DNA of 24,527 bases from a virus. This document shows positions 4,765 to 24,088 of the stretch, in pieces (position 1 is the stretch's first letter; every line of letters starts with the position of its first letter). The stretch is taken from IMG/VR virus record IMGVR_UViG_3300035704_000022, positions 1 through 24,527 of that record. The stretch is one strand, 5' to 3'. Position numbers and translations under genes: made by a program. The notes below the pieces were generated by a model. The model saw only the letters and a list, made by a program, of their open reading frames with translations, ran no database searches and had not been told where the DNA came from.

Positions 4765-5545
4765 CATGCCTGCGACCGCACCCGCACGCCGCGAGTTCGA
4801 GTTCACCCTGCCTGTCGGGTACACCGATGGTGAGGGCAACGTCCACCGGCAGGTGGTGCTGCGCAAGATGACCGGCCGCGAGGAGGCGATCCTCGCCGAC
4901 CGCAAGTACCAGCGAAACGGGGGCAAGCTCGTCACCGAGCTGCTGCACAGTTGCATGACCCGCTTCGGCGACCTGAGCCCGAACGGCCGCGGCCCGATCA
5001 CGGCGATGACCTCCGCCGACCGCAACTTCCTACTGCTCAAGCTGCGCAGCATCACCTTCGGCAGCCAGCTTGAGGCGACCTACCACTGCCCTGGCTGCAG
5101 CGAGCAGCTGCACTTCACGGAGGATCTTGACGAGCTGCCGGTGCGGCATCTGCCGGACGGTGACGAGCGGGCCGAGATCGCCGTCGAGCTGGAAGACGGC
5201 TGGCAGGACCGGGAAGGCCAGGTGCATATCGCGCTGCGGTTGCGGCTGCCCACCGGCGCCGACGAAGAGGCGGTCGCGCCGCAGCTGCGTGAGAATGCCT
5301 CGCTCGGCAAGAACGCCTTGCTGGCCAGGTGCATCATCAGCCTCGGTGACGTGCCTGCCTACCGGCTTGAGGGGATGGGGCCGCGGATCATGAGCGACCT
5401 GACCATGGCCGACCGGCGGCTCATCGACCGTGCCCTGAGCGATGGCGCGCCCGGTGTCGAGCTGGTCCGCGCGCTGGAGTGCCCGGGGTGCGGCAAGCAG
5501 TTCAGCGCTAGCCTGGACATGTCAAATTTTTTGGTGATGGCGTGA
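4754..5545 (+). CDS. Zinc-motif tail assembly/baseplate protein (T4_baseplate-like)
   Basis: The 263-aa product resembles the T4_baseplate/tail-assembly proteins that follow the tube gene in many eCIS loci. The N-terminal half has a conserved FTLPVGYTDGEGNVHRQVVL region and the motif LRKMTGREEAILADR. Two CPGC pairs, Cys112/115 and Cys243/246, could jointly bind one zinc ion although about 130 residues apart. The start GTG 4754 has GAGGGG in front and overlaps the tube gene, and the end overlaps the DUF6760-like gene by four bases (GTGA). In P2-type tails the gene in this slot is the tape-measure chaperone gpE, so a chaperone role for the three large proteins downstream is plausible. Confidence 0.75.
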   Translation: MSTDMPATAPARREFEFTLPVGYTDGEGNVHRQVVLRKMTGREEAILADRKYQRNGGKLVTELLHSCMTRFGDLSPNGRGPITAMTSADRNFLLLKLRSITFGSQLEATYHCPGCSEQLHFTEDLDELPVRHLPDGDERAEIAVELEDGWQDREGQVHIALRLRLPTGADEEAVAPQLRENASLGKNALLARCIISLGDVPAYRLEGMGPRIMSDLTMADRRLIDRALSDGAPGVELVRALECPGCGKQFSASLDMSNFLVMA

Positions 5546-9458: not shown

Positions 9459-11259
9459 AGACGAGCTCGTCATAGCCCAGCTCGGGCTGCTGCTCACCCA
9501 GGTCCACTACGCCCGGATCGCGCTGGAGGGCATCGAGCGGGCCACGACCCGGTACGCCGGCATCGCCCTCACCATGCCGGGCACCAGCACCGGGGGCGCG
9601 GCCTGGGGTGCCCCGCCGATGATCGACGGCGCGCTCAAGGTGTACGTGGTGAACATCGCCGATCTTACCGCCGGCGCGTCGGTCGGCGACGTGATCGCGG
9701 GTGTGATCGGTGGCGTGGGGCGGTTCCTCGGCGGCTTCGCCGGCGGGGTCGCCACCGGAGTGGTCGGCGGGATCTTCTTCAAGAAGATGCTCGAGCAGGC
9801 CAACCAGCTTGTTACGTCCCTGGACCGGGTCCTGGCACGGCTCGGGGTCGGTGCCGGGCCGCCTCCCGGGTCCGGCGGGCCCGCGGGCGCCGGAACCAGT
9901 CTCGCCGACTTGATCCCAGCGCTGTCGCGGCTGCTGCGTGAGATGGTCACGCTGTTCACCGCGGCGGCCGGCGGTCCCGGGCCGGGCGCGGCGGCCCCCG
10001 CCGCCGACGTTGGCCTGCTGTCCAGCCTGCAACCCGCACTGGCCGTCGCGGTAGCCGCGACCCATCTGGTCAACGGCCTGATCATCCTGCTGCCGCTGGT
10101 GATCGGGGCTCTCGCGTCGCTGCTCAACCACCTCGGACTGATCGAGATCGCGGTACTCGACCTGGGGGAGTTCGGCCTCCGGCTGGCACTCCTACTGCGG
10201 GCGGCCGTGCTCGGCACGGTGCTGGACACCATCTCGCTGGTCGGCGGGCTGGCCGCCACCACCCTCGGCCTGATCGCCACAGCGCTGGACGCGATCATTC
10301 CGGCGGTGTTCCGGCTCGTGGTGTCCGGCCTGGACACCGCGCTGACCGTACTGCAGATCGCCAGCACCGGCCTTAAGAACCTGATCGACGCGCTCATGCT
10401 CTGGCTGCGCGACGGCCTCGGCAGCATGCTGATCTTCATCGGGAACCTGCGGGTGTTCAGGCTGATCGAGCACCTGACCCAGGTCGCGCCGTTCGTGTTT
10501 CCCGCGATCGCCCGGCTGCAGAGCACGCCGCTGACCAAGGAAGAAACCCAGTCGCTGACCCTTGCCGGGATGCTCATCGGGCCGGGGGGTGGCGGAGGGA
10601 GCGGTGCGCCGAGCCCGGCACCCACGATTGCGAAGGCGCCGGACGCCGTGAGCCTGCTCCTGCCGCCCGCCGCCCGCACGGCCATGGCGGACAGCGTGCG
10701 CTCCCTCGGCACTTCGTTCACGACGGAAACCCGGACCACCCTGTCCGCGGTCCAGGGCACCCTGAGCGGGATCGGCGCGAGCTTCCGTACCGCGGTGGAC
10801 GGGCTGGACGCCACCCTTGGCCGGGAGATCGGCGCCCGCACCAAGATCGCCGGCGCGGACGTCGACACGCTGCACGAGTCCCTCGAGCGGGCCAGGACGG
10901 CCGCGCGCGAGCGGCCAAAGACGGGCCTGGAGGAGATCGCCGGGGCGTACGAGGACTGGCTGCGCGGCGGCGGCATGACGACGTTGTTGACCCAGCTCGA
11001 CCAGCATCTGCGGACCGCGCCCGTGCAGGGCCCCGATACCGGCACGTCGATCCCTGGCCGGACGGTGCGGGCCGTCCTGGCCGACGAGGGCGACCGCCGG
11101 GTCGTGGTCGAGATCGACGAGGTGGTGATCGAGCTGGGCCCGGAACCCCCCGCAGCGCCGGCGCCGTCATACGCGGGCGCCGGATACGACCCCGAGGCCC
11201 ACCGGGCCTGGGAGGAAGAGATCGAGGACCGCGCCGGCCTGAGGGAGCTGCTGGTGTGA
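9451..11259 (+). CDS. Hydrophobic tape-measure-slot protein 3 with glycine-zipper segment
   Basis: From ATG 9451 (GGGAGGTGG just upstream) the product is 602 aa and overlaps the previous gene by eight bases. Residues ~77-110 form a Gly-rich hydrophobic segment with repeated small-xxx-small spacing (GVIGGVGRFLGGFAGG, GVATGVVGGIFF). Glycine-zipper segments like this occur in membrane-inserting proteins and in some tape measures. More hydrophobic helices lie at ~195-225 and ~240-305. A charged C-terminus ends AHRAWEEEIEDRAGLRELLV. With the two genes before it, it fills the tape-measure slot. The role is inferred from position and composition only. A pore-forming cargo is an alternative. Confidence 0.55.
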   Translation: MDEDELVIAQLGLLLTQVHYARIALEGIERATTRYAGIALTMPGTSTGGAAWGAPPMIDGALKVYVVNIADLTAGASVGDVIAGVIGGVGRFLGGFAGGVATGVVGGIFFKKMLEQANQLVTSLDRVLARLGVGAGPPPGSGGPAGAGTSLADLIPALSRLLREMVTLFTAAAGGPGPGAAAPAADVGLLSSLQPALAVAVAATHLVNGLIILLPLVIGALASLLNHLGLIEIAVLDLGEFGLRLALLLRAAVLGTVLDTISLVGGLAATTLGLIATALDAIIPAVFRLVVSGLDTALTVLQIASTGLKNLIDALMLWLRDGLGSMLIFIGNLRVFRLIEHLTQVAPFVFPAIARLQSTPLTKEETQSLTLAGMLIGPGGGGGSGAPSPAPTIAKAPDAVSLLLPPAARTAMADSVRSLGTSFTTETRTTLSAVQGTLSGIGASFRTAVDGLDATLGREIGARTKIAGADVDTLHESLERARTAARERPKTGLEEIAGAYEDWLRGGGMTTLLTQLDQHLRTAPVQGPDTGTSIPGRTVRAVLADEGDRRVVVEIDEVVIELGPEPPAAPAPSYAGAGYDPEAHRAWEEEIEDRAGLRELLV

Positions 11260-11324: not shown

Positions 11325-12026
11325 GTGCGCAAGACCGGTTACCTGGCCAATGAACTGAACATCCCGCCGCTGATCTTCCGGTTCCAGTACAACCCGGACC
11401 TGCTGACCGAGAAGAAGAGCTACAAGTACGACCAGGCGAACAGCTTCGGACAGTGGGGGCCCGACCAGACCTCCGCGGGCGAGGGCGCGCTTGGCACAGT
11501 GCTGGGCTTTGTTTCCGACGTGAAGGAGATCGGCTCGCTGCTGGTCAACACACGCCCGCTGGAAGCAATCGAGGGCGAGCTGCGCTCGTTCGAGCTGGAG
11601 TTCAAGCTCGACGCCTCGGCGCCAGGGCCGCTGGACGGCGATAGCCACTACGGCGGGAGCATCACGCCCGATCTCGCCGTCCTGCGCTCGTTCATGACCC
11701 CTACCTACACGGCACTCGACATCGTCAAGATGATCGCCGACCATCGGATCGGTTGTTTTACCCGGCCGCCGACCTGCACGCTCAACTACGCCGCGCTGTC
11801 AGTCGAGTGCGTGATGACCGACCTGACCATCAAGCACACCGCGTTCCAGGACGACGGCGAGCCGCTGCGGGCCGAGGTGAGCTGTACGCTCAAGGAGCAG
11901 ACCTTCTCCACCGACCCGATCTCCGGCATGATCACGCGCCTCTGGGACGTCGGGCGCAGCTACCACCGGGCCGGGATCGGCACCGACGTCAGGGTCAACC
12001 TCCCGATCGTCGGGTCGTTCCTGTGA
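11325..12026 (+). CDS. Tube-initiator/baseplate adaptor (Afp7/Pvc7 N-terminal-like)
   Basis: The 233-aa product matches the CIS tube-protein N-terminal domain of Afp7/Pvc7. The first 40 residues contain IPPLIFRFQYNPDLLTEKKS followed by YKYDQANSFGQ. A beta-rich core has ELRSFELEFKLDAS, and later segments are ALSVECVMTDLTIKHTAFQ and EPLRAEVSCTLKEQTF. In assembled particles this protein joins the hub/spike to the first tube ring. The start is GTG 11325 after a very strong GAGGAGGTGAGGAG. Afp7-type proteins usually carry a C-terminal LysM domain. Here that domain is a separate gene seven bases downstream. Confidence 0.85.
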   Translation: MRKTGYLANELNIPPLIFRFQYNPDLLTEKKSYKYDQANSFGQWGPDQTSAGEGALGTVLGFVSDVKEIGSLLVNTRPLEAIEGELRSFELEFKLDASAPGPLDGDSHYGGSITPDLAVLRSFMTPTYTALDIVKMIADHRIGCFTRPPTCTLNYAALSVECVMTDLTIKHTAFQDDGEPLRAEVSCTLKEQTFSTDPISGMITRLWDVGRSYHRAGIGTDVRVNLPIVGSFL

Positions 12027-12033
12027 GCCGGCC

Positions 12034-12357
12034 GTGACCACCCCGATCCGGTCGCCGGGGTCTCGCTATCGCGGCCAGGCCGCCTACCCGGCCGCGGGCC
12101 GGGACGGCATGGTCCGGGCCACCGTGCCCGCCCGGCCGCTGCCGCCACCGCCCCTCGGTACGCCCTACCTGCACACGGTGATCGCCGGGGACACGATCGA
12201 GTCGCTGGCCCAGCGGTTCCTCGGCGCGAGCGAACTGTGGTGGCGCATCGCCGATGCCAACCCGGCGATGTTCCCGGCCGACCTCCAGCCGGGCAGCGTG
12301 CTGGCGATCCCCACCGGGCCCGCGCCCGGCCTCGTTGTCCGGACGAGGTCGTTCTGA
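12034..12357 (+). CDS. LysM-domain baseplate protein
   Basis: The 107-aa protein has a Pro/Arg-rich N-terminus and one LysM domain at about residues 45-92: HTVIAGDTIESLAQRFLGAS, then WRIADANPAMFPADLQPG, ending SVLAIP. LysM domains in phage tails (gpX, gp53, Afp7 C-terminus) sit in the baseplate hub region and need not bind peptidoglycan. GTG 12034 is the start, seven bases after the preceding stop. The end overlaps the next ATG (TGATG, 12355-12359). The gene looks like the detached C-terminal part of an Afp7-type protein. Confidence 0.85.
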   Translation: MTTPIRSPGSRYRGQAAYPAAGRDGMVRATVPARPLPPPPLGTPYLHTVIAGDTIESLAQRFLGASELWWRIADANPAMFPADLQPGSVLAIPTGPAPGLVVRTRSF

Positions 12358-13475
12358 TGGCTGGCGACCAGCCCTTCCTCCAGGTGCTCTTGAACAAGAG
12401 CCCGATCACCACGTCGGTGGCATCAGTCGAGATCGAAGACCACGACCGGCTGATCGACAAAGCCACGATCGTGCTCCGCGACCCGCACGTTTCGGCGCCG
12501 AATCTCGCCAGGAACGACGAGATCGAGGTGACCCTCGGCTGGGAGTCCGAGCACGCGGTGCTGTTCTCCGGGCGGGTCGTGGCCGATCCGCAACAGGCCC
12601 CGGCGACCGGGGTGCCGATCGTGACCATCGTGGCTTACGACCCGTCGTACTCGATGCATGAGCAGAAGCACGACGAGAATCTCACCGGTTCGCTGAGCGG
12701 CATCGTGTACACCATCGCCTCCAGGTACCCGCTGGTAAATGCGGACAAGAAGAACATCATCTGCGACCCGGATCCGCAGTTCACCGGCGACCCCCCGCTG
12801 CGCCAGCACAACCTGACCGACCTGCAGTTCCTGCAGTGGCTCGCGTGGCGGTACGGGCACCGGGCGTTCGCCGAGTACAACGACGATGCCGCCCGGTTCT
12901 ACTTCGTGTCCAACCACAGGCTGCTGCAGTCCGACCCGCTCGGCGCGCTGCAATGGTGTCACGGGATGCGCCAGCTCAAGGAGTTCAAGTACGAGCGGGT
13001 CGCCTCCCGCGCCGCCCGCCAGCGGATCGCGTCGGTGCCGGATCCGCGCACGGGCGAGGTGACACCCACGGTGGGTGCTACGCCACCGCCGATCGACCAG
13101 CCGGAGCCCGACCCGGTGCACGCGGACACCCTCGGCAAGCTGGACCCGGCCGAGCGGGCTCGCTACGAGTCCGGCGGCACGGGCGCCCCGCCGCCTGCCC
13201 CGGAACCGGCGCCGATGGTGGGGCTGCCGTCCGACCCGCGGCTGGCTGACGCGGTCACCATCTGGGATCCGACCCAGGTGCTCGGCCTGCGAGGCAACGG
13301 CACCGCGGTAGGCACGATCCACCTGCGGGCCAAGGGCAAAGTCACCATCGACGGGCTGGCGCCATGGGCCCAAGGTGACTGGTATGTGAACAAGGCGGTG
13401 CACAGCTGGAAGGACACCACTGTCGGCAAGGACACAAGCGCGACCTACGAGACGAAGTTCACGGTGACGCGATGA
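12357..13475 (+). CDS. Baseplate hub protein (gpD / VgrG N-terminal-like)
   Basis: The 372-aa product is a phage late-control gpD-type hub protein, equivalent to the first half of Pvc8/VgrG and T4 gp27. Signs are VEIEDHDRLIDKATIVLRDP, EVTLGWESEHAVLFSGRV, YDPSYSMHEQKHDENLTGSL and the segment NLTDLQFLQWLAWRYGHRAF. A Pro/Ala-rich linker covers roughly residues 220-285, followed by a final beta domain (GTIHLRAKGKVTIDGLAPWA). It would form the trimeric hub joining tube and spike. It overlaps the LysM gene by one base and the spike gene by four. Afp/PVC fuse hub and spike in one VgrG-like protein, whereas here they are split. Confidence 0.88.
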   Translation: MAGDQPFLQVLLNKSPITTSVASVEIEDHDRLIDKATIVLRDPHVSAPNLARNDEIEVTLGWESEHAVLFSGRVVADPQQAPATGVPIVTIVAYDPSYSMHEQKHDENLTGSLSGIVYTIASRYPLVNADKKNIICDPDPQFTGDPPLRQHNLTDLQFLQWLAWRYGHRAFAEYNDDAARFYFVSNHRLLQSDPLGALQWCHGMRQLKEFKYERVASRAARQRIASVPDPRTGEVTPTVGATPPPIDQPEPDPVHADTLGKLDPAERARYESGGTGAPPPAPEPAPMVGLPSDPRLADAVTIWDPTQVLGLRGNGTAVGTIHLRAKGKVTIDGLAPWAQGDWYVNKAVHSWKDTTVGKDTSATYETKFTVTR

Positions 13476-14305
13476 CCATCTACCTGCCATCAACGGGTTC
13501 TGACCTCGACCGCCACCGCGGCCGCTGGTACGGCAAGTACTCCGGCGTCGTCGTGGACGACGACGACCCGGACAAGCTCGGCCGGCTCAAGGTCGATGTG
13601 CCCGCGGTCTGGCGCGGGGCGGACCCCATGTGGGCCCGGCCCTGCTTCCCGCCGGGGCATTTCTTCACCCCGCCGGTCGGTGCGCATGTATGGGTCGAGT
13701 TCGAGGCCGGCGACCCCGGTTACCCGCTGTGGGTCGGCGTCTGGTTTCCCCAGGACGATGTGCCGGCGGAGGCCGCGCTGGAACCGCCGACCAGCCGGGT
13801 GATCCAGACCCCCTCAGGGCACACGGTGGAATTCGCCGACGAGGACGGCAAGGAGAAGATCCTGGTGCGGCACAAGGCGGACGCGTTCTTGTCGATCGAC
13901 GAGAACGGCTCGGTCGTGGTCGGCAACGCAACCGGCTCACTGGTCTACCTGAACGCCAAGGATGCCGAGGTGGCCATGGTCAGCGAGCAGGGCCACCGGG
14001 TGACGATGTCAGGCGACGGGCTGACCGTGACCCACAACGACGGCTCATTCGTCGACGTGCGGTCCGACTCGGTCGTGGTGAACGCCGCGAGCAAGGTGCA
14101 GGTGATGGGCAAGGAGGTCGCGGTGACAGGTGGTGCGGTCTCGCTCGGTTCCGGTCCGCCGCAGTTCGGCGTGGTGCTCGATTCTCCCGTCTTGGCGCCG
14201 TTCCTGACGCACACCCATCCCTCCGCGATGGGCCCGACAGGCCCGCCGGTGCCGCCGGTGGTGCCGAACACCCTCGGCTCGAAGAGCGTGAAGGCCAGCT
14301 CATGA
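13472..14305 (+). CDS. Central spike (gp5/gpV-like, phage base V OB-fold)
   Basis: The 277-aa product starts at ATG 13472, overlapping the hub stop. Residues ~15-92 are a gp5/gpV OB-fold: GKYSGVVVDDDDPDKLGRLK, WARPCFPPGHFFTPPVGAHV and GDPGYPLWVGVWFP. A repetitive beta-rich shaft follows (~105-235; SIDENGSVVVGNATGS, HRVTMSGDGLTVTHNDGSFV, SKVQVMGKEVAV). Near the end is THTHPSAMGPTGPPVPP, with His247-x-His249. In P2 gpV and similar spikes an HxH motif near the tip binds a metal ion. This spike may therefore carry its own metal-stabilised tip, consistent with the absence of a PAAR gene in the window. Confidence 0.9.
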   Translation: MTIYLPSTGSDLDRHRGRWYGKYSGVVVDDDDPDKLGRLKVDVPAVWRGADPMWARPCFPPGHFFTPPVGAHVWVEFEAGDPGYPLWVGVWFPQDDVPAEAALEPPTSRVIQTPSGHTVEFADEDGKEKILVRHKADAFLSIDENGSVVVGNATGSLVYLNAKDAEVAMVSEQGHRVTMSGDGLTVTHNDGSFVDVRSDSVVVNAASKVQVMGKEVAVTGGAVSLGSGPPQFGVVLDSPVLAPFLTHTHPSAMGPTGPPVPPVVPNTLGSKSVKASS

Positions 14306-14646
14306 GCCGTTGCTCGTTCCCGCCGCTGAGCCTGCCCAGCGTGTCGCTGCCGTCGCCGTCCCTGCCTTCGCTTCCTGCGCTGCCGCAGGTGCCTGCGCTG
14401 CCGAAGCTGCCGGATATGCCGTCCCCGCCGCCGCTGAGCCTGCCCAGCGTGTCGCTGCCGTCGCCGTCCCTGCCTTCGCTTCCTGCGCTGCCGCAGGTGT
14501 CTGCGCTGCCGAAGCTGCCGGATATGCCGTCCCCGCCGCCGCTGAGCCTGCCCAGCGTGTCGCTGCCGTCGCCGTCCCTGCCCTCCCTGCCAGCTCCGCC
14601 CCAGGTGCCGGCCCTGCCCTCGCTGCCCCCCTGCCCGCTGGACTGA
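14302..14646 (+). CDS. Pro/Leu/Ser tandem-repeat protein
   Basis: The 114-aa product starts at ATG 14302, overlapping the spike stop. After MSRCSF it is made of 2.9 copies of a 36-residue unit, with pieces SLPSVSLPSPSLPSLPALPQ, VPALPKLPDM and PSPP, and ends PCPLD. The whole protein is built from L-P-x and L-P-S steps and would be an extended polyproline-type rod, with one Cys near each end. It occupies the slot between spike and gp25 where Afp/PVC loci have the PAAR tip protein. Short LP-rich proteins with terminal cysteines occur at similar positions in other tail loci, as I recall. A spike-associated or tip role is inference. The frame is supported by its close coupling and by repeat units that are whole codons long. 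Confidence 0.65.
   Translation: MSRCSFPPLSLPSVSLPSPSLPSLPALPQVPALPKLPDMPSPPPLSLPSVSLPSPSLPSLPALPQVSALPKLPDMPSPPPLSLPSVSLPSPSLPSLPAPPQVPALPSLPPCPLD
14320..14640 (+). repeat. 108-bp tandem repeat, about 2.9 copies
   Basis: Copies begin at 14320, 14428 and 14536, giving a period of 108 bp (36 codons). Copies 1 and 2 differ by a single base that changes Pro to Ser. Copy 3 matches for about the first 50 bases and then diverges. The near-identity of copies 1 and 2 points to recent duplication or repeat homogenisation. Confidence 0.9.
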
Positions 14647-14679
14647 CGTCCACCCGATACCTCCGAAGGAGCTGATCCG

Positions 14680-14886
14680 ATGGCACTGGACAAGAACGGC
14701 CTGAGCGCGGCGCTGCTCTCGATGATGAACAATGCCCAGGACAAGGCGTGGAACAAGCAGCAGGTGGCCGACGCGATGGCGGCGGCGATCGACGGTTACG
14801 TGCGCGCCGCGTCCGTGTCCGGCGTCGTGGTCGCGCTGCCGGGAGGCGTGACAGCCGCCCAGTCCAACACCGCGAGCCTGACATGA
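14680..14886 (+). CDS. Small helical tail protein upstream of gp25
   Basis: The 68-aa product begins MALDKNGLSAALLSMMNNAQ and continues with KQQVADAMAAAIDGYVRAAS, two predicted helices, then a short hydrophobic strand GVVVALPGG. Small proteins of this form are common in phage and tailocin baseplate regions, but I know of no assigned function. GAAGGAG at 14665-14671 lies eight bases before ATG 14680. The end overlaps the gp25 start (ATGA), which supports it being translated as part of the baseplate block. Confidence 0.75.
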   Translation: MALDKNGLSAALLSMMNNAQDKAWNKQQVADAMAAAIDGYVRAASVSGVVVALPGGVTAAQSNTASLT

Positions 14887-15266
14887 ACGGCGGCCTGGAC
14901 GGCGTACGCGGCATGGCGTTTCCTTTCCGCATCGACCCGGACACCGGCGGCGTGGCGACGACCGAGGGCGAGACCAAGATTGGCGAGAACGTCCGGCTGG
15001 TGATCGGCACCCGGCTCGGCGAGCGGCCCATGCTGCGCGACTTCGGCACCCGGGTGCCGGGTCTGGCGCACGACCCAGACGACGAGGTCTTGGTCGACTT
15101 GGCGGGCAAGCAGGTGCTTCAGGCGCTCATGCGCTGGGAGCCGCGGATCGTCATTACCTCCAGCCGGGTAGAGCCGGCCAGCGGGCCAGGCGAGGTCCGG
15201 CTGCGACTGGACTACGTGCACACCAACGAGCAAGTCGCGGGCACCGCGATCCTCCCGCTTAGCTGA
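14883..15266 (+). CDS. Baseplate wedge protein gp25-like (GPW/gp25)
   Basis: The 127-aa product is a gp25/gpW-family wedge protein: GMAFPFRIDPDTGGVATTEG near the start, then NVRLVIGTRLGERPMLRDFG, with the characteristic EW/RF-type positions and a final beta strand LRLDYVHTNEQVAGTAILPL. In T4 and PVC, gp25 contacts the first sheath ring and links sheath to baseplate. The start at ATG 14883 overlaps the previous stop. Length fits the family (about 110-140 aa). Confidence 0.93.
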   Translation: MNGGLDGVRGMAFPFRIDPDTGGVATTEGETKIGENVRLVIGTRLGERPMLRDFGTRVPGLAHDPDDEVLVDLAGKQVLQALMRWEPRIVITSSRVEPASGPGEVRLRLDYVHTNEQVAGTAILPLS

Positions 15267-15277
15267 GGCGAGCCGCC

Positions 15278-16942
15278 ATGACCACTCCAGCCGGTTCGCC
15301 GACCGCGGCCGTGACGCCGCTGCCGATCGATTACACCGACAAGGATTTCGCCTCCCTCCGGCAGGCGCTGCTCGACGTCGCGGCGTACCGGCTGCCGGAG
15401 TGGACCGACCGATCGCCAGCCGATCTAGGGGTCCTTCTCGTCGACCTGTTCGCCTACATGGGCGACGTGATCAGCTACTACCAGGACCGGCTGGCCGGAG
15501 AGGCGTTCCTGGACACCGCGGTCGAGCGGCGCAGCGTGATGTATCTGCTCCGGCTGATCGGCTATGAGCTGGCCGGCCCCACCGCAGCCGCCGCCGAGCT
15601 GGACCTGGTGTTCAACGCCCCCGGCCAGGGCCAGCCAACGGCCGTCACGGTGCCGAACCGCGCGCAGTTCGCGACGAAACCGGCTGGCGGTCCGGCCACC
15701 GCCAGTATCCCGACATTTGAGTACCTGGGCTCGGACCTGACGGTCGACCTGGCGGGATCTGGTGTGACCGCCCGGGCGGACGGCAAGCTGGTGCTGAGCC
15801 GCCTGCCCGTTCGGCACAGCCAGTCCGTAGTCGGTGAGGTGCTCGGCTCGACCACGGGCGAGCCTAACCAGCGGTTCGCGCTGTCCGGCGTCCCTGTGCA
15901 GGTCGACACGCTCGTGGTCACGGTGGACGAGGGCGCCGGGCCGGTGACCTGGACCCGCCGCGACAACCTCGCCTACCACGTGGGAGACGACGGCCAGGTG
16001 GTGCCTTCCGGCCCGGACAGCAGGGACTACCTCGTGCAGGCGGACGAGAACGGCGTCGCGTCGGTGGTCTTCGGCGACGGCGTCTTCGGCCGCCGCCCCC
16101 CCGCCGGGACCTCCAACGTGCGTGCCGACTACAGCATCGGCGGCGGCACGGACGCCAATGTGGCGGCGGGGGCGATCACCGTGGCCAAGACTCAGATCGC
16201 CGGGCTGGCGAGCGTGTCCAACCCGCTGCCGGCGGTCGGCGGTGCCGACGCCGAGACGGTTGACAGGGCCGTACGGCTCGGCCCGCAGGCGTTCCGCTCC
16301 GGCGACCGGGCAGTGACCCTCAATGACTACACGGCGCTGGCGCTGCAGGCTGGTGGCGTCGCGAAGGTCCGGGCCCGGTCCACCGGCTGGAACCGGGTGG
16401 ATCTGTATGTGGCGCCTGAGGGGGCCGTCGTCGCGCCGTGCCCGCCCGCGCTCAAGCAGCGCCTCGTGGGCTACTTCGACACCCGCCGGATGGTAGGCAC
16501 CTCTGTCCGGGTGATGGACGCGGTGCCGGTGCCGATCGACATCGCCGTGCAGGTCGTGCCCGAGCCACACTACGACCCCGGCAATGTGCAGGCCCGAGCG
16601 CAGGCCGCTGTCGAGGGCGTGGTCGCATTCGCTGCTGTCAGTTTCGGCCGGCCCCTGTATCTCTCGAAGGTTTATGAGGCGGTCGAAGTGCAGGACGGCG
16701 TGATGGCCGCGACAGTGACCCGGTTCCGCCGGCAGGACCAGGCCCCGCCGCCGGCTTTCCTGCACCGCCAGGGCATCTTGCTCGAGGCCGGTCTCGGCGC
16801 GGTGCAGGACTTCGTGCTGCGAGCCTACAGCGGCGACATCGCGGTCGAGGGCCGGATCGACATCGGCGAGGTGGAGCTGCCGACCGCCGGCGTGGTCACG
16901 GTCACCATCCAGCCCGACAGCGAGTTGACGGACAGCCAGTAG
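15278..16942 (+). CDS. Baseplate assembly protein (gpJ/gp6-like, Afp11-type)
   Basis: The 554-aa product has the N-terminal signature of putative baseplate assembly proteins: DYTDKDFASLRQALLDVAAY, SPADLGVLLVDLFAYMGDVI, SYYQDRLAGEAFLDTAVERR and YLLRLIGYEL. The middle contains FGDGVFGRRPPAGTSNVRAD and YSIGGGTDANV, typical of gpJ/gp6-like wedges. The C-terminal part has the usual ALKQRLVGYFDTRRMVGTSV segment. It should dimerise into the wedge ring around the hub. ATG 15278 lies 11 bases after the gp25 stop with GAGG upstream. It is followed by a 58-base gap containing a hairpin. Confidence 0.93.
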   Translation: MTTPAGSPTAAVTPLPIDYTDKDFASLRQALLDVAAYRLPEWTDRSPADLGVLLVDLFAYMGDVISYYQDRLAGEAFLDTAVERRSVMYLLRLIGYELAGPTAAAAELDLVFNAPGQGQPTAVTVPNRAQFATKPAGGPATASIPTFEYLGSDLTVDLAGSGVTARADGKLVLSRLPVRHSQSVVGEVLGSTTGEPNQRFALSGVPVQVDTLVVTVDEGAGPVTWTRRDNLAYHVGDDGQVVPSGPDSRDYLVQADENGVASVVFGDGVFGRRPPAGTSNVRADYSIGGGTDANVAAGAITVAKTQIAGLASVSNPLPAVGGADAETVDRAVRLGPQAFRSGDRAVTLNDYTALALQAGGVAKVRARSTGWNRVDLYVAPEGAVVAPCPPALKQRLVGYFDTRRMVGTSVRVMDAVPVPIDIAVQVVPEPHYDPGNVQARAQAAVEGVVAFAAVSFGRPLYLSKVYEAVEVQDGVMAATVTRFRRQDQAPPPAFLHRQGILLEAGLGAVQDFVLRAYSGDIAVEGRIDIGEVELPTAGVVTVTIQPDSELTDSQ

Positions 16943-17000: not shown

Positions 17001-18296
17001 ATGCGCGTCGAAGGGTTCACGGCGGTCGCCGACGTGGTCGGCCGCCGCGTCAAGGTTCGCTGGGACGTCGTCCTTGACGAGGGTGACACGCTCGCCGGCA
17101 TGCCTGCGATGGCGGTGCGGCGCAAGGAGCGTGACTTCGAGTTTCCCGATCCTCCGGCCGTCGGCGAAGACCCGTTCAACGTCTATGACAGCACGGCGTT
17201 CCCGCCGCAAGGGACAACCGTCACGGAGGTGGACCTCGGCGGCGTCCTGTTGCCCGACGGCAGCCGCCGGACCGCGCTCGCCGAGTCCGCCGCGCGCACT
17301 GTCGACGGCCACCCCATCGAGGTGCTGCGCCGCACCCGGAGCACGACGATCGGCCCGGACGGCCGGGTGCTCCAGCGGTCCGAGGAAGTGCTCGATGTCG
17401 CCGGTACCGGCCTTGGGCTGGAGCCACGCACCACGTACTACTACCAGCTTGAGGTGGCCGAGGGCGCCGCTGTGCCCGGCTGGCCCACCAGGCGGCCGCA
17501 GGCCATCGCCACGCCGACCGGCAGCTACGGCACCGGCCGGGCCCTCTACGAGCAGCTGCCAGCGATCTACCGGCGGCATGACGTCGTCACGGGCCCCGGC
17601 GACCGGGCGGCCGGGGCGATCCCCGAGGCAGTGCCGGACAACGGTCAGCTGCGCCGGTTCCTCGACCTGTTCGGCACCGGCCTCGACCACCTGCGCGGAC
17701 GTGCAGAGGGCCTGCTGGACCTGCGTGACGTCGATACCGTGGACGCGCGGATGCTGCCGCACCTGGCTGCCTGGCTGGGCTGGAACCTGTCCGCCGACCA
17801 GCCGATCCCGATCCAGCGGCACGAAGTGCGGTACGCCGCCCAGCTCTACCGGATCACCGGCACACTGCCCGGCTGCACGCTCTGGGCCAAGCGGCTGACC
17901 GGCTGGGACATGCAGGTCAGAGAGATGTGGCGGAACGTATTCGTCAGCAACGACCTGGGCAACCCGGGCGACCCTGACGACCGCGGCTCGCGCACGGTGG
18001 ACACCTCGGATGCGGCCCTGCTGGCTTCGAGGGGCACCCCTGACGACCGCTGCGACTACAGCTATGACACTAGCCCGGACGGCCTGCACGCCTTCACCGT
18101 TGTTGCCTTCTACGCCACCCCCGACCCGGCGCAGACGGTAGATGATGTGCTCGCACGGCGTGGTCGGCTGTTCAACGGCAGGAAATTCTTCCTGCCCTTC
18201 AACCTGCGCCCGGCGGTTGTCCTCGCCATCCCGGCCGACGACAGCGGCGAGACCTCCGCGCTCGGCCTGACCGCAAGCACTGACCAGGGGGTGTGA
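17001..18296 (+). CDS. Tail protein gpI-like (Afp12-type baseplate protein)
   Basis: The 431-aa product combines an N-terminal ~170-residue beta-rich region (FTAVADVVGRRVKVRWDVVL up to RTTYYYQLEVAEG, fibronectin-III-like in pattern) with a C-terminal P2-gpI/TIGR02242-type domain. The latter contains LYEQLPAIYRRHDVV, LRRFLDLFGTGLDHLRGRAE, MLPHLAAWLGWNLSADQPI and YRITGTLPGCTLWAKRLTGW. Such proteins sit at the outer baseplate and help attach fibres, which matches the two fibre-like genes that follow. GGAGGAGG precedes ATG 17001. The end is two bases before the next start region (TGACCATG). Confidence 0.85.
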   Translation: MRVEGFTAVADVVGRRVKVRWDVVLDEGDTLAGMPAMAVRRKERDFEFPDPPAVGEDPFNVYDSTAFPPQGTTVTEVDLGGVLLPDGSRRTALAESAARTVDGHPIEVLRRTRSTTIGPDGRVLQRSEEVLDVAGTGLGLEPRTTYYYQLEVAEGAAVPGWPTRRPQAIATPTGSYGTGRALYEQLPAIYRRHDVVTGPGDRAAGAIPEAVPDNGQLRRFLDLFGTGLDHLRGRAEGLLDLRDVDTVDARMLPHLAAWLGWNLSADQPIPIQRHEVRYAAQLYRITGTLPGCTLWAKRLTGWDMQVREMWRNVFVSNDLGNPGDPDDRGSRTVDTSDAALLASRGTPDDRCDYSYDTSPDGLHAFTVVAFYATPDPAQTVDDVLARRGRLFNGRKFFLPFNLRPAVVLAIPADDSGETSALGLTASTDQGV

Positions 18297-18298
18297 CC

Positions 18299-19990
18299 AT
18301 GAGCTTTTCCAACGGTGGTGTCGACACATTCGACGCGGCCAAGAGCTACATCGGAATCCGCTTGCAACAAGGCGTTCCGCTTCTCGACAGGGACTGGAAC
18401 GAGCTTGAGGACATCCGCCGGTACGTCGAGCGCACCCTGCGCGCCAGCTACCTCGGCGAGGGTGTGCCAGACGCCGACGGGTTCGCCGTCACCGCGCCCT
18501 CATTCCCCGCGCAAGACGACGTGCTCATCGGCACAGGCCAATGCAGCGTGGCCGGGTACGACGTTTGGAACCAGCAGGCGAGTGCGCTGTTCTCGGCCCA
18601 GGGCGACGGGGTCCCGCTGCCAGCGGCGCTGCCGGACGCGGCCGACGTACTCACCCTCTACCTCGAGCCGGACGTCGTCCGGGTGGACAGCGCGGACGAC
18701 CCGGCGCTAGCCAACTCGCAGGACGTCAACATGGAAACGTGCGTGCGAGACCGGCTGGTCTGGTCTGTGCGCGCCGCCCGGCAGCCAGCGATGCCGCCCG
18801 CCGGCAGCTACGTGCTGGCCGAGATCAGCCGGCCCGCGGGCACCACCCAGATCACCGCGGACATGATCACCGACCGGCGCCGGACGCTGCTCAACCTCGC
18901 CCAGGCGGTGGACAGGCTAGGCAGGGCCGAGAGCCGGATCACCGCGCTGACCTCGGCGATGGCCCAAGCGCAGCTGGACATCGAGGCGATGAAACAGGAC
19001 CTCGGCCGGCTGTTCTGGGACGTGTCGGTGAACAGCGAGTCCAGCTGGCTGCTGTTCGGCGGCAAGGCCATCATCCAGGTCCAGGTGCACGACCGGCTCG
19101 GCAGCCCGATCGACGGCGCGCTGCTGTCGTTCAGCACCGACTGGGGCGTGATCTCGCCGCCGTTCGCATCGACCGACGCCAACGGCGAGGCCAGCGTGGA
19201 CTTCGTCGGCGTGCCGGCCGACGTCCCGCTCCGGCTTCCTGACATCGGCATGCTGCAACGCGCCAGCGAAAAGATAGGCGCGGCCGTGCTGCCTACGCAG
19301 GACGCGGTGGAGTACGCCAAAGTGCGATTCGAGCCGGAGGAGCTGTCCGTGCTCTCCCGGTACACCTCACCCGCGCACCTGGCCGATCTCGGCACCGACC
19401 TGCCGGTCGGGCCGGTGGTGGCCCGGCCCGATCCGCGGACCGCGACTGTGACCGTGCACGCCCGGGAGGGCCAAGGCGCGATCGTCCGCGGGGTCGGCAG
19501 TATCCAGATCACCTTCGGGCTCTGGATCAGGGACTTTGTCCGGACGAAGATCGCCGATGTGGCGCGCACCGTCGAGGTTGGCGCCCGGATCGGCGACGTG
19601 CTCCGGCAAGGCCTCACGGCCGGCCAGTTCGACCACGACCGGGTAGCCACCCAGCTGCTCCCTGGGACCCTGCAAGCGATCCAGGACGACACCCACCTGG
19701 CCGTCAAGCAGCACCTGTTCGCCGACCCTGAAGTGGACGACGACCACGTGGCAGGCACCGGCGTGCTCAGCCAGGTGATCGCCCAGGAGTCGACCGCAGC
19801 CGTGGGCGCGCAGACCAACCAGGCGATCGGGAAGCAGATAGACCAGTTCGCGGCCGCCCAGCAGCAGCCGCTCGACGCCGCCGACGCTGCCGTGGCCAGG
19901 ACCGTCATCGTGCAGCGCGCATCGCAGATCACGGCTGGCTTCTCGCAGCATCAGCGGCAGCAGTACTCCGGTGCCCTGGTCGGGCGCTGA
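18299..19990 (+). CDS. Fibre-like protein (DUF6519-type N-terminus) with Ig-like domain
   Basis: The 563-aa product opens with GVDTFDAAKSYIGIRLQQGV and PLLDRDWNELEDIRR, the N-terminal signature of DUF6519-type proteins found at the fibre position of eCIS loci. Residues ~120-200 are beta-rich. A coiled-coil-like stretch (~200-238, AVDRLGRAESRITALTSAMA) leads to an Ig-like/Big-1-type domain at ~245-305 (AIIQVQVHDRLGSPIDGALL, then STDANGEASVDFVGV). The C-terminal 150 residues are helical and Gln/Ala-rich. GGGGG at 18287-18291 selects ATG 18299; GTG 18293 is in frame but less likely. Ig-like domains with this pattern occur in invasins and surface adhesins. A target- or surface-contact role is inferred from position and domains. 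Confidence 0.75.
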   Translation: MSFSNGGVDTFDAAKSYIGIRLQQGVPLLDRDWNELEDIRRYVERTLRASYLGEGVPDADGFAVTAPSFPAQDDVLIGTGQCSVAGYDVWNQQASALFSAQGDGVPLPAALPDAADVLTLYLEPDVVRVDSADDPALANSQDVNMETCVRDRLVWSVRAARQPAMPPAGSYVLAEISRPAGTTQITADMITDRRRTLLNLAQAVDRLGRAESRITALTSAMAQAQLDIEAMKQDLGRLFWDVSVNSESSWLLFGGKAIIQVQVHDRLGSPIDGALLSFSTDWGVISPPFASTDANGEASVDFVGVPADVPLRLPDIGMLQRASEKIGAAVLPTQDAVEYAKVRFEPEELSVLSRYTSPAHLADLGTDLPVGPVVARPDPRTATVTVHAREGQGAIVRGVGSIQITFGLWIRDFVRTKIADVARTVEVGARIGDVLRQGLTAGQFDHDRVATQLLPGTLQAIQDDTHLAVKQHLFADPEVDDDHVAGTGVLSQVIAQESTAAVGAQTNQAIGKQIDQFAAAQQQPLDAADAAVARTVIVQRASQITAGFSQHQRQQYSGALVGR

Positions 19991-20019
19991 CGGGATTAGG
20001 CACGGAGAGGAGACCGGCG

Positions 20020-23000
20020 ATGATCCTTCATGGCCGGGCTGGAGGCCACTGGCACCCGGCGCGGGGCAGCACGCGCCAGCTCCCGCTGTCGCCGAACCTG
20101 GTCTGCTTTACCGCCCTAGACCTCATCGGCGCGCTTCTCACCGGCGACGCGCCAGGCGGGATCGCCTATCTCGCGGTCGGCACCGGCGATCCGGCATGGG
20201 ACGCCCAGCCGCCACCGCCGGACCGGTCCCGTACCACGCTGACGGCGGAGATCTACCGGATCCGCCTGCGTCCAGGCATCGAGATCAGCTACGACAGCAG
20301 CGCGGGCGCGGTGGACGTCCAGGTCAGCCTCGGTCCCGGCGTCGCGACTGGCCCGCTGCGAGAGCTCGGCCTGTTCGGCGGCCCGGCCACCGCTATGCCG
20401 GGTAGCGGGCTACTTGTCAACCACAAGGTGCACGACCGGATCGACAAGGCTGCCGGCGACACCGTGAACCGCGAGCTGCGCCTTCAGCTGGCCGACGACC
20501 TGCTGCCCGGTACCAGGAACCTGATCGGCAGCCTGCTGGCAGGAGTGCCCGGCCTGGCGGGATTGCAGTTCGGCGCCCTCGGCACTGATGGATCGGTTCC
20601 AGCCGACCCGCCGGCCAGGCTGGCCGCGGAGGCGTTCCGCGCGCCGCTTGGCCGGCCGGACCTCCGCTACGACGCCGTACGGCATGAGGTGGTGGCCGTC
20701 CTGCGCGTGCCGTTCACCGCAGGCCCAGCCAAGGTCGCCGAGGCCGGGCTGTTCGGCGGCAGCGCGACCACCGACGCCGGCAGCGGCCTGCTCGTGCAGC
20801 GCCAGGTATTCCCTCCCATCGATAGGACCGCGCCGCGGGCGATCACCCGGCGGTTCGTGCTATCCCTGGTCCCTGCCACGGCAGTTCCGGTGCCTGAGGT
20901 CGTCGGCATCGCACTGAACGCGGCCACGGCCGCGCTCGCCGCGGCCGACCTCGTGCCTGGGGACGTCGAACTGGCTGCTGGCGGCGCGGTGCCCGCGGGA
21001 ACCGTGACCGCACAGCAGCCGGCCGCCGGCACCTCCGTCCCTGAGGGCACCCGGGTCGCACTGACCGTGGCAGCGACGGCCACCGTGCCGGTGCCCATGG
21101 TGCTCGGGCTGCCGGTGGCCACCGCCGAATCGGCGATCACCGCGGCCGGGCTGGTGCCCGGTGACCCGTCGCTGGAGGAGACCGAGGACGCGCCACGGGG
21201 CAGCGTGATCGCTGTCCGGCCGCCGCCGGGCAGCACGGTCCCGGTGGGCTCTGCGGTCACCCTCACGGTGGCCACACCCCCGATCCGCGCGGTGCCTGAC
21301 GTGCTGGGCCGGACTCCCGCCGCGGCCAGCGTGATACTCACGTCGGCCGGGTTCCGCCTGGCTGCCCCCCCGTATCCGGTGCTGGAAGGTGGCAGCACCG
21401 CAGGCACGATCGTGCAGCAGTCCCCGCCCGCCCGGACCCAGTCCGCGGTCGACCAGCCGGTGCAGATCACGGTGTCCGGCCCGTGGGGAGTGAACGTGCC
21501 GGACCTGACCGGCGACACACTGGATGCCGCCGCGCAGGCGCTTCGGGACGCCGCCGCGCCCGTGCTGGCAAGTCTCGGCCGGCCAGCCGATCCGCCGGGA
21601 CTGACCCTCGGCGCGACCTCCGAGCGGCCCGCGGTCACGGACGAAATTGTTGGCACCGTGGTCGGCCAGCAGCCGGCCGCCGGAACACGGGCGCCCCTGT
21701 ACGCGGCGGTCTCTCTCGTACTGGCCGGCGCTGTACATCAGCCCGTTCCAGCCCTCACCGGCCTCGAACTCGGTGCCGCGGCCGTCGCGCTGACCGCCGC
21801 GGGCTTCACGCTTGGGGCGGTCGCGCACCGGGCGGCCGACACCACCGCAGGCACCGTGGTGGACCAGGACCCGGACACTGGCAGTAGCTGGCCGCCGGGT
21901 GGCCGGGTCGCGGTGTCGCTCGCCGTGCCGCTGAGCGTCGTGGTCCCCGACCTGACCGGGCTGGATCAGGCGGCAGCGGTCGAGGGGCTGACCAGCCGCG
22001 GGCTCGCGGCCGGGCCGGTGACAAGCACACCTACGGGCCCGGGAACCGAACCCGGGCGGGTCATCGGCCAGAATCCCGCGGCCGGCGCGGTCGCAGACAA
22101 GGGATCTTCGGTGGCGCTCAACGTCGCCGCCGGGATGCCCTTCCTGGTCGGCCGCAGCCAGGCTGACGCCGTCGCCACCGTGACCGCGCTCGGGCTCACC
22201 CCCAGCATCACGCAACAGCCGGACGCCGCCGCGCCAGGCACGGTGATCAGCCAGGACCCACCGGCGGGCGCGCCGACAACCGCCGGCCAGACGGTGACGA
22301 TCGTAGTAGCCGTGCCACGGCCGGTGCTGGTGCCGGATGTCACCGGCCTGCTGCTCCCTGACGCCCAGGCCCGGGTAGCCGCTGTTGGACTGGCGCTCGT
22401 GGTCGGCGGGTCGCAAGAGCAGGCCGGCGTCCCGGAGGGCACGGTCATCGCGCTCGATCCGCAAGCAGGATCGGCGGTGCCGCCCGGCAGTACCGTGAGC
22501 GCGACCCTGTCCGTCGCGCCACCGGTCATGGTCGCCGTGCCTGCACTGACCGGACGTTCCGCAGCGGACGCCAAGCAGTTGGTAACCCAGGCCGGGCTCG
22601 TGCTGGCGGTGAGTGGCACGCAGCCATCCCCTGGCACGCCAGCCGGCGCGGTTCTCTCCCAGGACCCGGCCGCGGGCACTTCCGTGCGCACCGGCTCGAC
22701 GGTGTCTGTCATCCTGGCCAGCGTCGACACCAGCGTCGTCGTGCCTGACCTGCGCTCGCTGACCATAAGCGCCGCGCAAGCTGCCGCTCAGCAGGCGACG
22801 CTGGGCCTGACGCAAACCGGCACGGCGCTGTCGCCCGGGCCTCCGGGCGTGGTGCTGTCACAAGACCCGCTGCCCAATTCACGGGTGCCAGCCAGGACCA
22901 CGATCGGCGTCGTGACATCAGTGCGGGCTGTCCGGCTGCCGGATGTGGTCGGCGAGGACGTGAGCGTGGCATCGAACGAGTTGCGGGCGCTGGGCCTCGT

Positions 23001-23178
23001 GGTCCGGACCGTCCCGCGTCGGATGGTCAATGGAGACGGGACGGTGTTCGCCCAGTCACCGGCCGCCAGGACGGTGGTAGCTGTGGCATCGGCCGTCACT
23101 CTGAGCTTCTCGATTGCGGTGATCAAGCTACCAGGCCCGGGCGGGCCGGTCGGGCCCATCCGCCCCCTGCCCTTCTGA
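20020..23178 (+). CDS. Fibre-like protein with 11 PASTA repeats
   Basis: The 1052-aa product is the last gene of the run. Residues ~29-160 and ~167-285 are two related tail-fibre-type modules. Each has an early LxxG-x-GT segment and a late GLFGG(P/S)AT...GSGLLV...V...ID pattern. From residue 289 to ~1033 there are 11 PASTA repeats of about 65-70 residues. Their typical openings are VPDLTG, VPDVTG and VPALTG, with internal GTVISQDPPAGAP-type motifs. The tail ends LPGPGGPVGPIRPLPF. PASTA domains in PknB/Stk kinases and PBP2x sense or bind peptidoglycan or muropeptides. I see no kinase or transpeptidase domain and no N-terminal membrane anchor. GGAGAGGAG lies before ATG 20020. The likely role is baseplate-attached binding to cell wall, inferred from domains and position. 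Confidence 0.88.
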   Translation: MILHGRAGGHWHPARGSTRQLPLSPNLVCFTALDLIGALLTGDAPGGIAYLAVGTGDPAWDAQPPPPDRSRTTLTAEIYRIRLRPGIEISYDSSAGAVDVQVSLGPGVATGPLRELGLFGGPATAMPGSGLLVNHKVHDRIDKAAGDTVNRELRLQLADDLLPGTRNLIGSLLAGVPGLAGLQFGALGTDGSVPADPPARLAAEAFRAPLGRPDLRYDAVRHEVVAVLRVPFTAGPAKVAEAGLFGGSATTDAGSGLLVQRQVFPPIDRTAPRAITRRFVLSLVPATAVPVPEVVGIALNAATAALAAADLVPGDVELAAGGAVPAGTVTAQQPAAGTSVPEGTRVALTVAATATVPVPMVLGLPVATAESAITAAGLVPGDPSLEETEDAPRGSVIAVRPPPGSTVPVGSAVTLTVATPPIRAVPDVLGRTPAAASVILTSAGFRLAAPPYPVLEGGSTAGTIVQQSPPARTQSAVDQPVQITVSGPWGVNVPDLTGDTLDAAAQALRDAAAPVLASLGRPADPPGLTLGATSERPAVTDEIVGTVVGQQPAAGTRAPLYAAVSLVLAGAVHQPVPALTGLELGAAAVALTAAGFTLGAVAHRAADTTAGTVVDQDPDTGSSWPPGGRVAVSLAVPLSVVVPDLTGLDQAAAVEGLTSRGLAAGPVTSTPTGPGTEPGRVIGQNPAAGAVADKGSSVALNVAAGMPFLVGRSQADAVATVTALGLTPSITQQPDAAAPGTVISQDPPAGAPTTAGQTVTIVVAVPRPVLVPDVTGLLLPDAQARVAAVGLALVVGGSQEQAGVPEGTVIALDPQAGSAVPPGSTVSATLSVAPPVMVAVPALTGRSAADAKQLVTQAGLVLAVSGTQPSPGTPAGAVLSQDPAAGTSVRTGSTVSVILASVDTSVVVPDLRSLTISAAQAAAQQATLGLTQTGTALSPGPPGVVLSQDPLPNSRVPARTTIGVVTSVRAVRLPDVVGEDVSVASNELRALGLVVRTVPRRMVNGDGTVFAQSPAARTVVAVASAVTLSFSIAVIKLPGPGGPVGPIRPLPF
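20884..23118 (+). repeat. PASTA-repeat array (11 units, protein-level repeat)
   Basis: Eleven PASTA units of about 200 bp each follow one another. They are recognisable by VP-x-(L/V)-x-G openings and G(T/V)V-x-x-Q-x-P-x-x-G(T/S) motifs. The fourth unit is longer, with an insertion. The seventh begins directly with PFLVGRSQ and lacks the leading VPD. Units are diverged in DNA sequence, so the array is not a recent expansion. Confidence 0.88.
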
Positions 23179-23195
23179 GAGCGATGAGACAGGCT

Positions 23196-23218
23196 GGGCC
23201 GGTCGTAAACCCGGTCCC
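23196..23218 (+). terminator. Hairpin just after the last eCIS gene
   Basis: GGGCCGG and CCGGTCCC pair with one bulged T around an 8-base loop, 18 bases after the stop of the PASTA gene. No T-run follows, which is common for actinobacterial terminators. It is a candidate transcript end for the eCIS run. Confidence 0.45.
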
Positions 23219-23297
23219 GCACCAGCCACCCTGCGTTTTCCCCTGGACCACTCGTGGGCAGGGCCTGGCGGGCGGATCTGTCACTCTGTCACCGAGT

Positions 23298-23320
23298 TGG
23301 CCCTACAAACTGTAGGGCCA
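23298..23320 (+). terminator. Perfect 10-bp hairpin downstream of the eCIS run
   Basis: TGGCCCTACA and TGTAGGGCCA form a perfect 10-bp stem around AAC. Its position between the last eCIS gene and the IS6 element suits a terminator, possibly bidirectional. The perfect palindrome could instead be a regulator-binding site. No T-run is present. Confidence 0.5.
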
Positions 23321-23365
23321 CTTCTGGGGCCAAACGAAACGTGCGTGCCGAAAAGCTCGTCCACG

Positions 23366-23388
23366 GGCTCTGTTGCGTTGGGCGATCG
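23366..23388 (+). repeat. IS6 left terminal inverted repeat
   Basis: ggctctgttgcgttgg followed by gcgatcg matches the reverse complement of 24146-24168 at 19 of 23 positions. It contains the family core TGTTGC. Confidence 0.85.
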
Positions 23389-23410
23389 CGGCGGCCGGCA
23401 GACTGGTGCG

Positions 23411-24088
23411 ATGACGTCGTTGGGCTCTTCTTCTGTGTTCGCTGGCTTCCGCTTCCCGCGGGAGGTGATCTCCCTGGCCGTCCGCTGGTACCTGCGCTAC
23501 GGCCTGTCCTACCGCGACGTCGAGGAGCTGCTGGCCGAGCGGGGCATCACCGTTGACCACGTCACCGTGTACCGCTGGGTCCAGCGCTTCACTCCCGAGT
23601 TCATCGAGGCGGCACGGTTCTGCCGGCATGCTCCCGGTGACCGCTGGTTCGCCGATGAGACCTACGTCAAGGTCGCCGGGCGGTGGACATATCTGTACCG
23701 GGCGATTGACCAGCACGGCCAGGTCGTCGACGTGCTGCTGTCGGCGCGGCGTGACCTGGCTGCGGCCCGGCGGTTCTTCACCGGCGCGCTGCGCGCAGGC
23801 ACGATCCCAGCCGAGGTCACGACTGACCGGGCCGTGGCCTATCCGAGGGTTCTCGACGAGCTGATCCCCTCAGCACTGCATAGCGTCGAGCGCTACGCGA
23901 ACAACCCGGTCGGAGCCGACCATGGCCGCCTGAAAGCGCGGCTGCGACCGATGCGCGGACTGAAACGCCACCGGTCCGCGCGGATCATCTCCACTGGGCA
24001 CGCGTTCGTCCAGAACCTCCGCCGCGGCCACTATGAACTCGCCACCGACGTCCCGGCCCGTCACCGGATCCGCGCAGCCTTCGACTAG
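23411..24088 (+). CDS. IS6-family transposase, catalytic Glu apparently lost
   Basis: From ATG 23411 the 225-aa product shows the IS6 pattern. An N-terminal helix-turn-helix-like part (VRWYLRYGLSYRDVEELLAE, RGITVDHVTVYRWVQRF) is followed by a DDE domain with Asp82 in DRWFADETYVKVAGRW, Asp139 in VTTDRAVAYPRVLDE, and the C-terminal HGRLKARLRPMRGLKRHRSA. In relatives the third catalytic residue is the Glu of a NN-x-(V/I)-E-ADH motif. Here the motif reads NNPVGADHG, with codon GGA at 23912-23914, so Glu168 is replaced by Gly. The protein is full length otherwise. It is probably unable to catalyse transposition. That relatives have Glu here is from memory of the family. Confidence 0.88.
   Translation: MTSLGSSSVFAGFRFPREVISLAVRWYLRYGLSYRDVEELLAERGITVDHVTVYRWVQRFTPEFIEAARFCRHAPGDRWFADETYVKVAGRWTYLYRAIDQHGQVVDVLLSARRDLAAARRFFTGALRAGTIPAEVTTDRAVAYPRVLDELIPSALHSVERYANNPVGADHGRLKARLRPMRGLKRHRSARIISTGHAFVQNLRRGHYELATDVPARHRIRAAFD

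Follow-up and report, generated by a model that had tools for sequence, protein, structure and literature searches.

A PASTA-bearing protein at the end of a contractile gene cluster

In Listeria phage A511, the protein gp105 ("baseplate wedge 3") forms the proximal part of the tail fibres, and the wedge homologue of phage Vp4 has two extra carbohydrate-binding modules (CBMs) and has been confirmed to bind (PMC11406892). Among extracellular contractile injection systems (eCIS), a 2026 catalogue of fibres describes DUF6519 as the baseplate-anchor domain eBAP5, which marks a type of contractile injection system (CIS) with a Tail_P2_I adaptor and is correlated with Actinobacteriota (PMC12923769). 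The main text of that catalogue, as distinct from its supplements, does not contain the word "PASTA", and the literature that we searched (PASTA with CIS, PASTA with phage receptor) held no PASTA-bearing CIS fibre. Here we describe a candidate for one, encoded at 20020-23178 on the plus strand of a 24,527-nucleotide stretch of DNA (positions 1 to 24,527 of the IMG/VR virus record IMGVR_UViG_3300035704_000022, hereafter the window). Its 1052-residue product joins two baseplate-type modules to eleven consecutive PASTA domains, and we are fairly confident that it is a peripheral arm of a contractile particle, the particle itself being deduced from the genes.

The PASTA family (PF03793) matches the product with 368.5 bits against a Pfam curated cut-off of 23.2 (E 1.1e-112), giving 11 PASTA stretches at the permissive Pfam limit and 10 at a stricter E limit. 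Our search of the record itself returned 12 matches that lie consecutively at 20884-23112 (aa 289-1031) and count as 11 domains, because the fourth (21490-21723) has an internal insertion of about 15 residues and is matched in two halves. This insertion, placed after the helix, is strikingly kept in an ortholog from an Acidobacteria metagenome-assembled genome (MAG) as ALRDAAAxVLAxxGxPxxPPGL, in a domain that is 44.6% identical between the two proteins. The eleven domains have diverged among themselves and show no recent tandem expansion. A first-pass annotation of the window had read the gene as two tail-fibre-type modules followed by eleven PASTA domains with no kinase, transpeptidase or membrane anchor, and this description holds: besides PASTA, no kinase, transpeptidase or other Pfam domain exceeds its cut-off in the product, the sole further match being a sub-threshold one to BW3TFN (PF25691), and no convincing anchor was found.

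Residues 1-285 consist of two tandem copies of one module (aa 1-158, 20020-20493; aa 159-285, 20494-20874) that are 41% identical to each other and both match phrog_5417, a phage family of unknown function. An AlphaFold2 (AF2) model of residues 1-290, predicted alone, has a mean predicted local distance difference test score (pLDDT) of 91 and a predicted template modelling score (pTM) of 0.89. Its structural neighbours, found by Foldseek and VIA-align, include a 953-residue HFTV1 tail chain (Z 20.1, root-mean-square deviation (rmsd) 3.4, 241 residues), A511 gp105 (6hhk_A; Z 10.2, rmsd 3.2, 110 residues), the phi812 arm segment (9fko_A; Z 9.8 over 109-110 residues) and T4 gp8 (Z 8.0). By the A511 gp105 and phi812 matches, the predicted fold of the modules is of the baseplate-wedge-3 type, and the PASTA protein falls below the Pfam cut-off for PF25691, the baseplate wedge 3 tail fiber network component (21.5 vs 27 bits). 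All 35 aligned module rows match phrog_5417, some of them also "virion structural", "tail collar fiber" or PF25691, the last in 9 of the 35 relatives (best E 9.3e-10). Phage versions of the module are proteins of their own, some 190 aa long and mostly encoded right behind Tail_P2_I, and the module occurs beside Tail_P2_I and DUF6519 in CIS clusters and phages. Searches by tblastn with the N-terminus returned no relatives in phages or plasmids, and neither a single-sequence pattern scan of the N-terminus nor alignment scans with DUF6519 and Tail_P2_I found relatives among viral contigs. A model of the full-length protein built from two sequences reached a pLDDT of 26.6 and was discarded.

The gene belongs to the operon of the cluster. 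It begins with ATG, 7 nt behind a strong ribosome-binding site (GGAGAGGAG, 20004-20012) and 29 nt after the stop of the preceding gene, and a scan of 18000-23500, limited to promoters of the sigma-70-like kind, returned neither such a promoter nor a terminator-like site. It closes a run of sheath, tube, hub, spike, gp25, baseplate J, Tail_P2_I and DUF6519 genes. The claim that it is the final gene holds only within the 24.5-kb record, because an IS6/IS240-type transposase gene comes directly next (23297-24088). All protein matches of this transposase are below 60%, and the element may have severed a 3' part of the cluster.

To find relatives, we scanned a degenerate motif of the module over 84,980 species (one genome each), which yielded eleven loci. 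One of them, L019 in the Acidobacteria MAG, has the operon order of the window, with pieces 32-58% identical by tblastn (tube 72%). Its equivalent slot holds a PASTA ortholog of 994 aa (L019:9857-12841) with two modules and nine PASTA hits, which is 40% identical to the window protein over its full length; the baseplate J proteins are 59% identical. The two arrays are collinear when aligned, that of L019 being one copy shorter. Given the E-values and this full-length ortholog in the matching slot of a syntenic cluster, the detection of the array is not a chance result. The other ten loci carry one module only, in some cases followed by a helix-hairpin-helix-like region, and are tail or CIS loci where the flanks are readable. 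Seven tail or CIS loci (L020-L024, L027 and L029) encode a protein of about 320 aa made of the module and the helix-hairpin-helix-like region, and in L021, L022, L024 and L029 a second, stand-alone module protein of about 180 aa is encoded just upstream of the DUF6519 gene. Among about 1,240 genomes from three phyla (297 Acidobacteriota, 150 of the L019 family, 398 of the phylum of L025 and 395 of that of L027, where the first two sets may overlap), no module-PASTA fusion was detected beyond the window and L019, and none was found away from tail loci. Five more window-type IMG/VR clusters (L051-L055) break off ahead of the fibre slot or near it, so the comparison of this slot covers the window and L019. 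Other PASTA proteins of related genomes lie outside CIS clusters, such as a penicillin-binding protein (PBP)-like gene and a three-PASTA gene in L048 and L093. PASTA matches in the phage records MT837907.1 and MT835987.1 (L094 and L095) were set aside as PknB-type kinases that are probably bacterial DNA contamination.

Proposed role and ligand of the PASTA array

Judging from fold and gene position, the two N-terminal modules would dock on the outer baseplate near the Tail_P2_I (17001-18296) and DUF6519 (18293-19990) proteins, and the eleven PASTA domains, by analogy with their family, would reach outward as an extended multivalent rod. Given that PASTA domains serve as cell-wall sensors in other proteins, this rod may engage the peptidoglycan of a bacterial cell, or some other ligand in its envelope, and so hold the particle near the wall until firing of the sheath. 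Neither a signal peptide nor a membrane anchor is recognisable in the protein, so the arm would be assembled in the cytoplasm, as part of the particle, and would meet a wall only after release or loss of the producer membrane. The chances that the protein is a peripheral baseplate arm whose array binds envelope or peptidoglycan seem to us about even. More tentatively, and with the balance tilting against it, the long multivalent arm might let the particle choose its targets through peptidoglycan, that is through wall chemistry or exposed or nascent wall, and not through a surface sugar or protein.

A second link between PASTA domains and CIS was found in a CIS cluster on Rhodovulum plasmids. 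In Rhodovulum sp. MB263 (NZ_CP020385.1), the fibre-slot gene directly behind Tail_P2_I encodes a 446-aa protein (WP_080618143.1; locus L130:11093-12433) that has an Ig-like N-terminus, two PASTA domains and, judged by a hydropathy peak at aa 125-143, one transmembrane (TM) segment. The protein is conserved in R. sulfidophilum at 82.5% identity (second Rhodovulum locus, L134:14001-15332), and its C-terminal region contains Cys. In genetic place and topology it recalls CisA, a membrane adaptor that the Streptomyces CIS requires in order to fire (PMC12237407), a likeness short of an established homology. The Rhodovulum baseplate J lies far from that of the window in the tree, with long branches, and therefore the two recruitments look independent, which suggests that PASTA domains entered CIS at least twice. 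The proposal that the arm serves against Gram-positive prey finds no support here, because both organisms with PASTA-CIS genes, an acidobacterium and a proteobacterium, belong to diderm lineages.

The first-pass annotation had proposed a cell-wall receptor array on the particle. Its fibre part stands, given the wedge-3-like fold, the module relatives in tail loci and the ortholog in the matching slot; several observations weigh against wall binding. In Mycobacterium tuberculosis PknB, an S-K-x-N-Q motif contacts muropeptide or lipid II (PMC6428115), and the corresponding Ser-Lys and Asn-Gln residues occur in none of the 10 inter-domain linkers of the window array. In PrkC, muropeptide is bound by only a single one of the three PASTA domains, and having the domain does not in itself confer binding (PMC3601408). 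Per-domain identity between the window and L019 ranges evenly from 28 to 48% along the array, with no conserved distal tip. All of this would also suit an array that is a mere rigid spacer or protein-protein scaffold, setting the length of the arm or carrying another protein without binding the wall, as would the linear form of the PASTA regions of PknB and PrkC (PMC3601408) and the difference of one PASTA copy between the orthologs. We consider such a spacer rather unlikely, since other repeats usually serve this purpose in CIS and phage fibres and since PASTA was also recruited in the unrelated Rhodovulum CIS, which suggests that the ligand of the domain matters. An array that acts on the envelope of the producer itself, docking the particle at the wall or triggering firing on membrane failure in the manner of CisA, is less probable still. 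The window protein begins with a baseplate arm module and not with a CisA-like domain, and it shares no TM segment with its ortholog; aa 1019-1037, its most hydrophobic stretch, correspond to the final strand of the PASTA array, where the ortholog is not hydrophobic.

On whether the cluster encodes an eCIS, its gene content counts on both sides. Against it, we found no AAA+ ATPase and no Pvc16-type cap gene, either among the window genes or, in the relatives read, on the upstream side of the sheath, and because of this the label "eCIS" used for the cluster is likely but not proven; both genes are present in a more distant relative, L056. The remaining evidence favours it. The window holds the eCIS run of sheath, tube, tube adaptor, hub/spike, gp25 and baseplate J, with the CIS-type families CIS_tube, DUF6519 and TIGR02241/TIGR02243. 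In the baseplate J tree, window-type clusters join CIS of cellular genomes, L056 among them, on a branch with moderate support (85/96) and outside a well-supported phage clade. That the cluster is instead a prophage or phage tail region, with the PASTA protein as an ordinary adsorption arm, would fit its place in a virus collection, the frequency of the module family in phages and the identity of about 30% between its baseplate J and the nearest annotated phage proteins. This we regard as very improbable, given the families and the tree just described: no capsid or packaging gene was found in the 24.5-kb window, and the L019 cluster lies downstream of ordinary chromosomal genes, a flank in which no head gene was seen. 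Among these chromosomal genes is an indigoidine-synthase-like one with relatives in other genomes of that phylum. A search of ten related records with phrog_2, which we take to be the large terminase, returned no match. Records of the window type (the window and L051-L055) probably stem from CIS gene clusters of cells that have been filed as viruses.

As cell-wall fragments are the best-known PASTA ligands, the arm suggests a concrete candidate ligand for the CIS particles of soil bacteria, whose targets may be other bacteria, eukaryotes or their own producer. If the envelope-binding arm is real, arrays of a peptidoglycan-binding type can also sit on baseplate wedge arms of the phage kind. Were the arm to choose targets through peptidoglycan, the presence of PASTA in clusters unrelated to each other would point to cell-wall sensing as an input that CIS firing uses in general.

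Other genes of the cluster

All further genes of the cluster lie on the plus strand upstream of the PASTA gene. The first, at 980-2074, is present in all window-type clusters in which that side is visible; its product has no Pfam or PHROG match, is 29-41% identical to proteins of L047, L087, L088, L089 and L092, and is a candidate cap or terminator protein for a kind of CIS that showed no Pvc16 gene. It is followed by the contractile sheath (2501-4246; PF04984/PF17482, phrog_23), the inner tube (4294-4764; gp19/TIGR02241) and a T4_baseplate protein (4754-5545; PF12322). The tape-measure slot (5716-11259) is occupied by three large proteins of about 600 aa each with hydrophobic stretches (5716-7482, 7479-9458 and 9391-11259), of which the first bears a weak resemblance to a tape-measure PHROG (E 0.005) and at least two are recognisable in every relative read (L019/L047, L051-L055). 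They may represent a split tape measure or membrane-acting components. Next come the CIS_tube tube-initiator or adaptor protein (11325-12026; PF19266), a hub protein with a weak tail-protein match (12237-13475) that is syntenic in L019 and L051-L055, and the spike with a Phage_base_V OB domain (13472-14305).

Between the spike and gp25 (about 14310-14750), we detected a short frame with a Pro/Leu/Ser-rich repeat (LPSVSLPSPSLPSLPALPQVPALPKLPDMPSPPP) in nearly three copies. The Pfam-matched gp25-type baseplate wedge (14748-15266) probably has an internal true start and is followed by Baseplate J (15278-16942; TIGR02243), the Tail_P2_I wedge adaptor mentioned above (TIGR02242) and, adjoining it, the DUF6519 gene, whose product has a Big_1-like stretch and matches PF20129 with 24.3 bits (cut-off 22.4; 33.8 bits for its L019 ortholog). 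The DUF6519 gene places the cluster in the eBAP5 subtype and probably encodes the anchor-type fibre proper, and because this fibre is already present, the PASTA protein is probably a second, peripheral arm. In the record of L054, a LamG/PKD protein of 897 aa and an RHS-repeat protein of 2210 aa, a possible effector, are encoded about 7 kb upstream of the window-type CIS (L089:2-9337).

Comparison with known systems

The window gene shares with the baseplate wedge 3 proteins (A511 gp105, the phi812 arm segment and Bacillus phage Vp4 Gp119) the fold of the N-terminal module and the place in the gene order, behind the gpI/wedge genes, and differs from them in its two tandem modules and in scoring below the PF25691 cut-off. 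The plan is that of Vp4 Gp119, with eleven PASTA domains in place of the CBMs. As in the eCIS of the eBAP5/DUF6519 type (PMC12923769), the cluster combines a Tail_P2_I and DUF6519 baseplate with modular fibres; the PASTA gene itself has no DUF6519 or eBAP match and forms a separate, second appendage gene. With the PASTA kinases and PBPs (PknB, PrkC, StkP and PBP2x) the protein has the tandem array in common, whereas it lacks kinase, transpeptidase and TM segment, carries eleven copies against the usual few, is without the PknB ligand residues and is encoded in a tail cluster. CisA and, by prediction, the Rhodovulum protein are single-pass membrane proteins, whereas the window protein is predicted to be soluble, begins with baseplate modules and shares PASTA domains with the Rhodovulum protein only. 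What appears to be new, with respect to the literature searched, is that an arm of the baseplate-wedge-3 type on a DUF6519-type CIS carries a PASTA array, an arrangement conserved in two distant organisms; the first-pass annotation likewise knew of no characterised eCIS with such a fibre.

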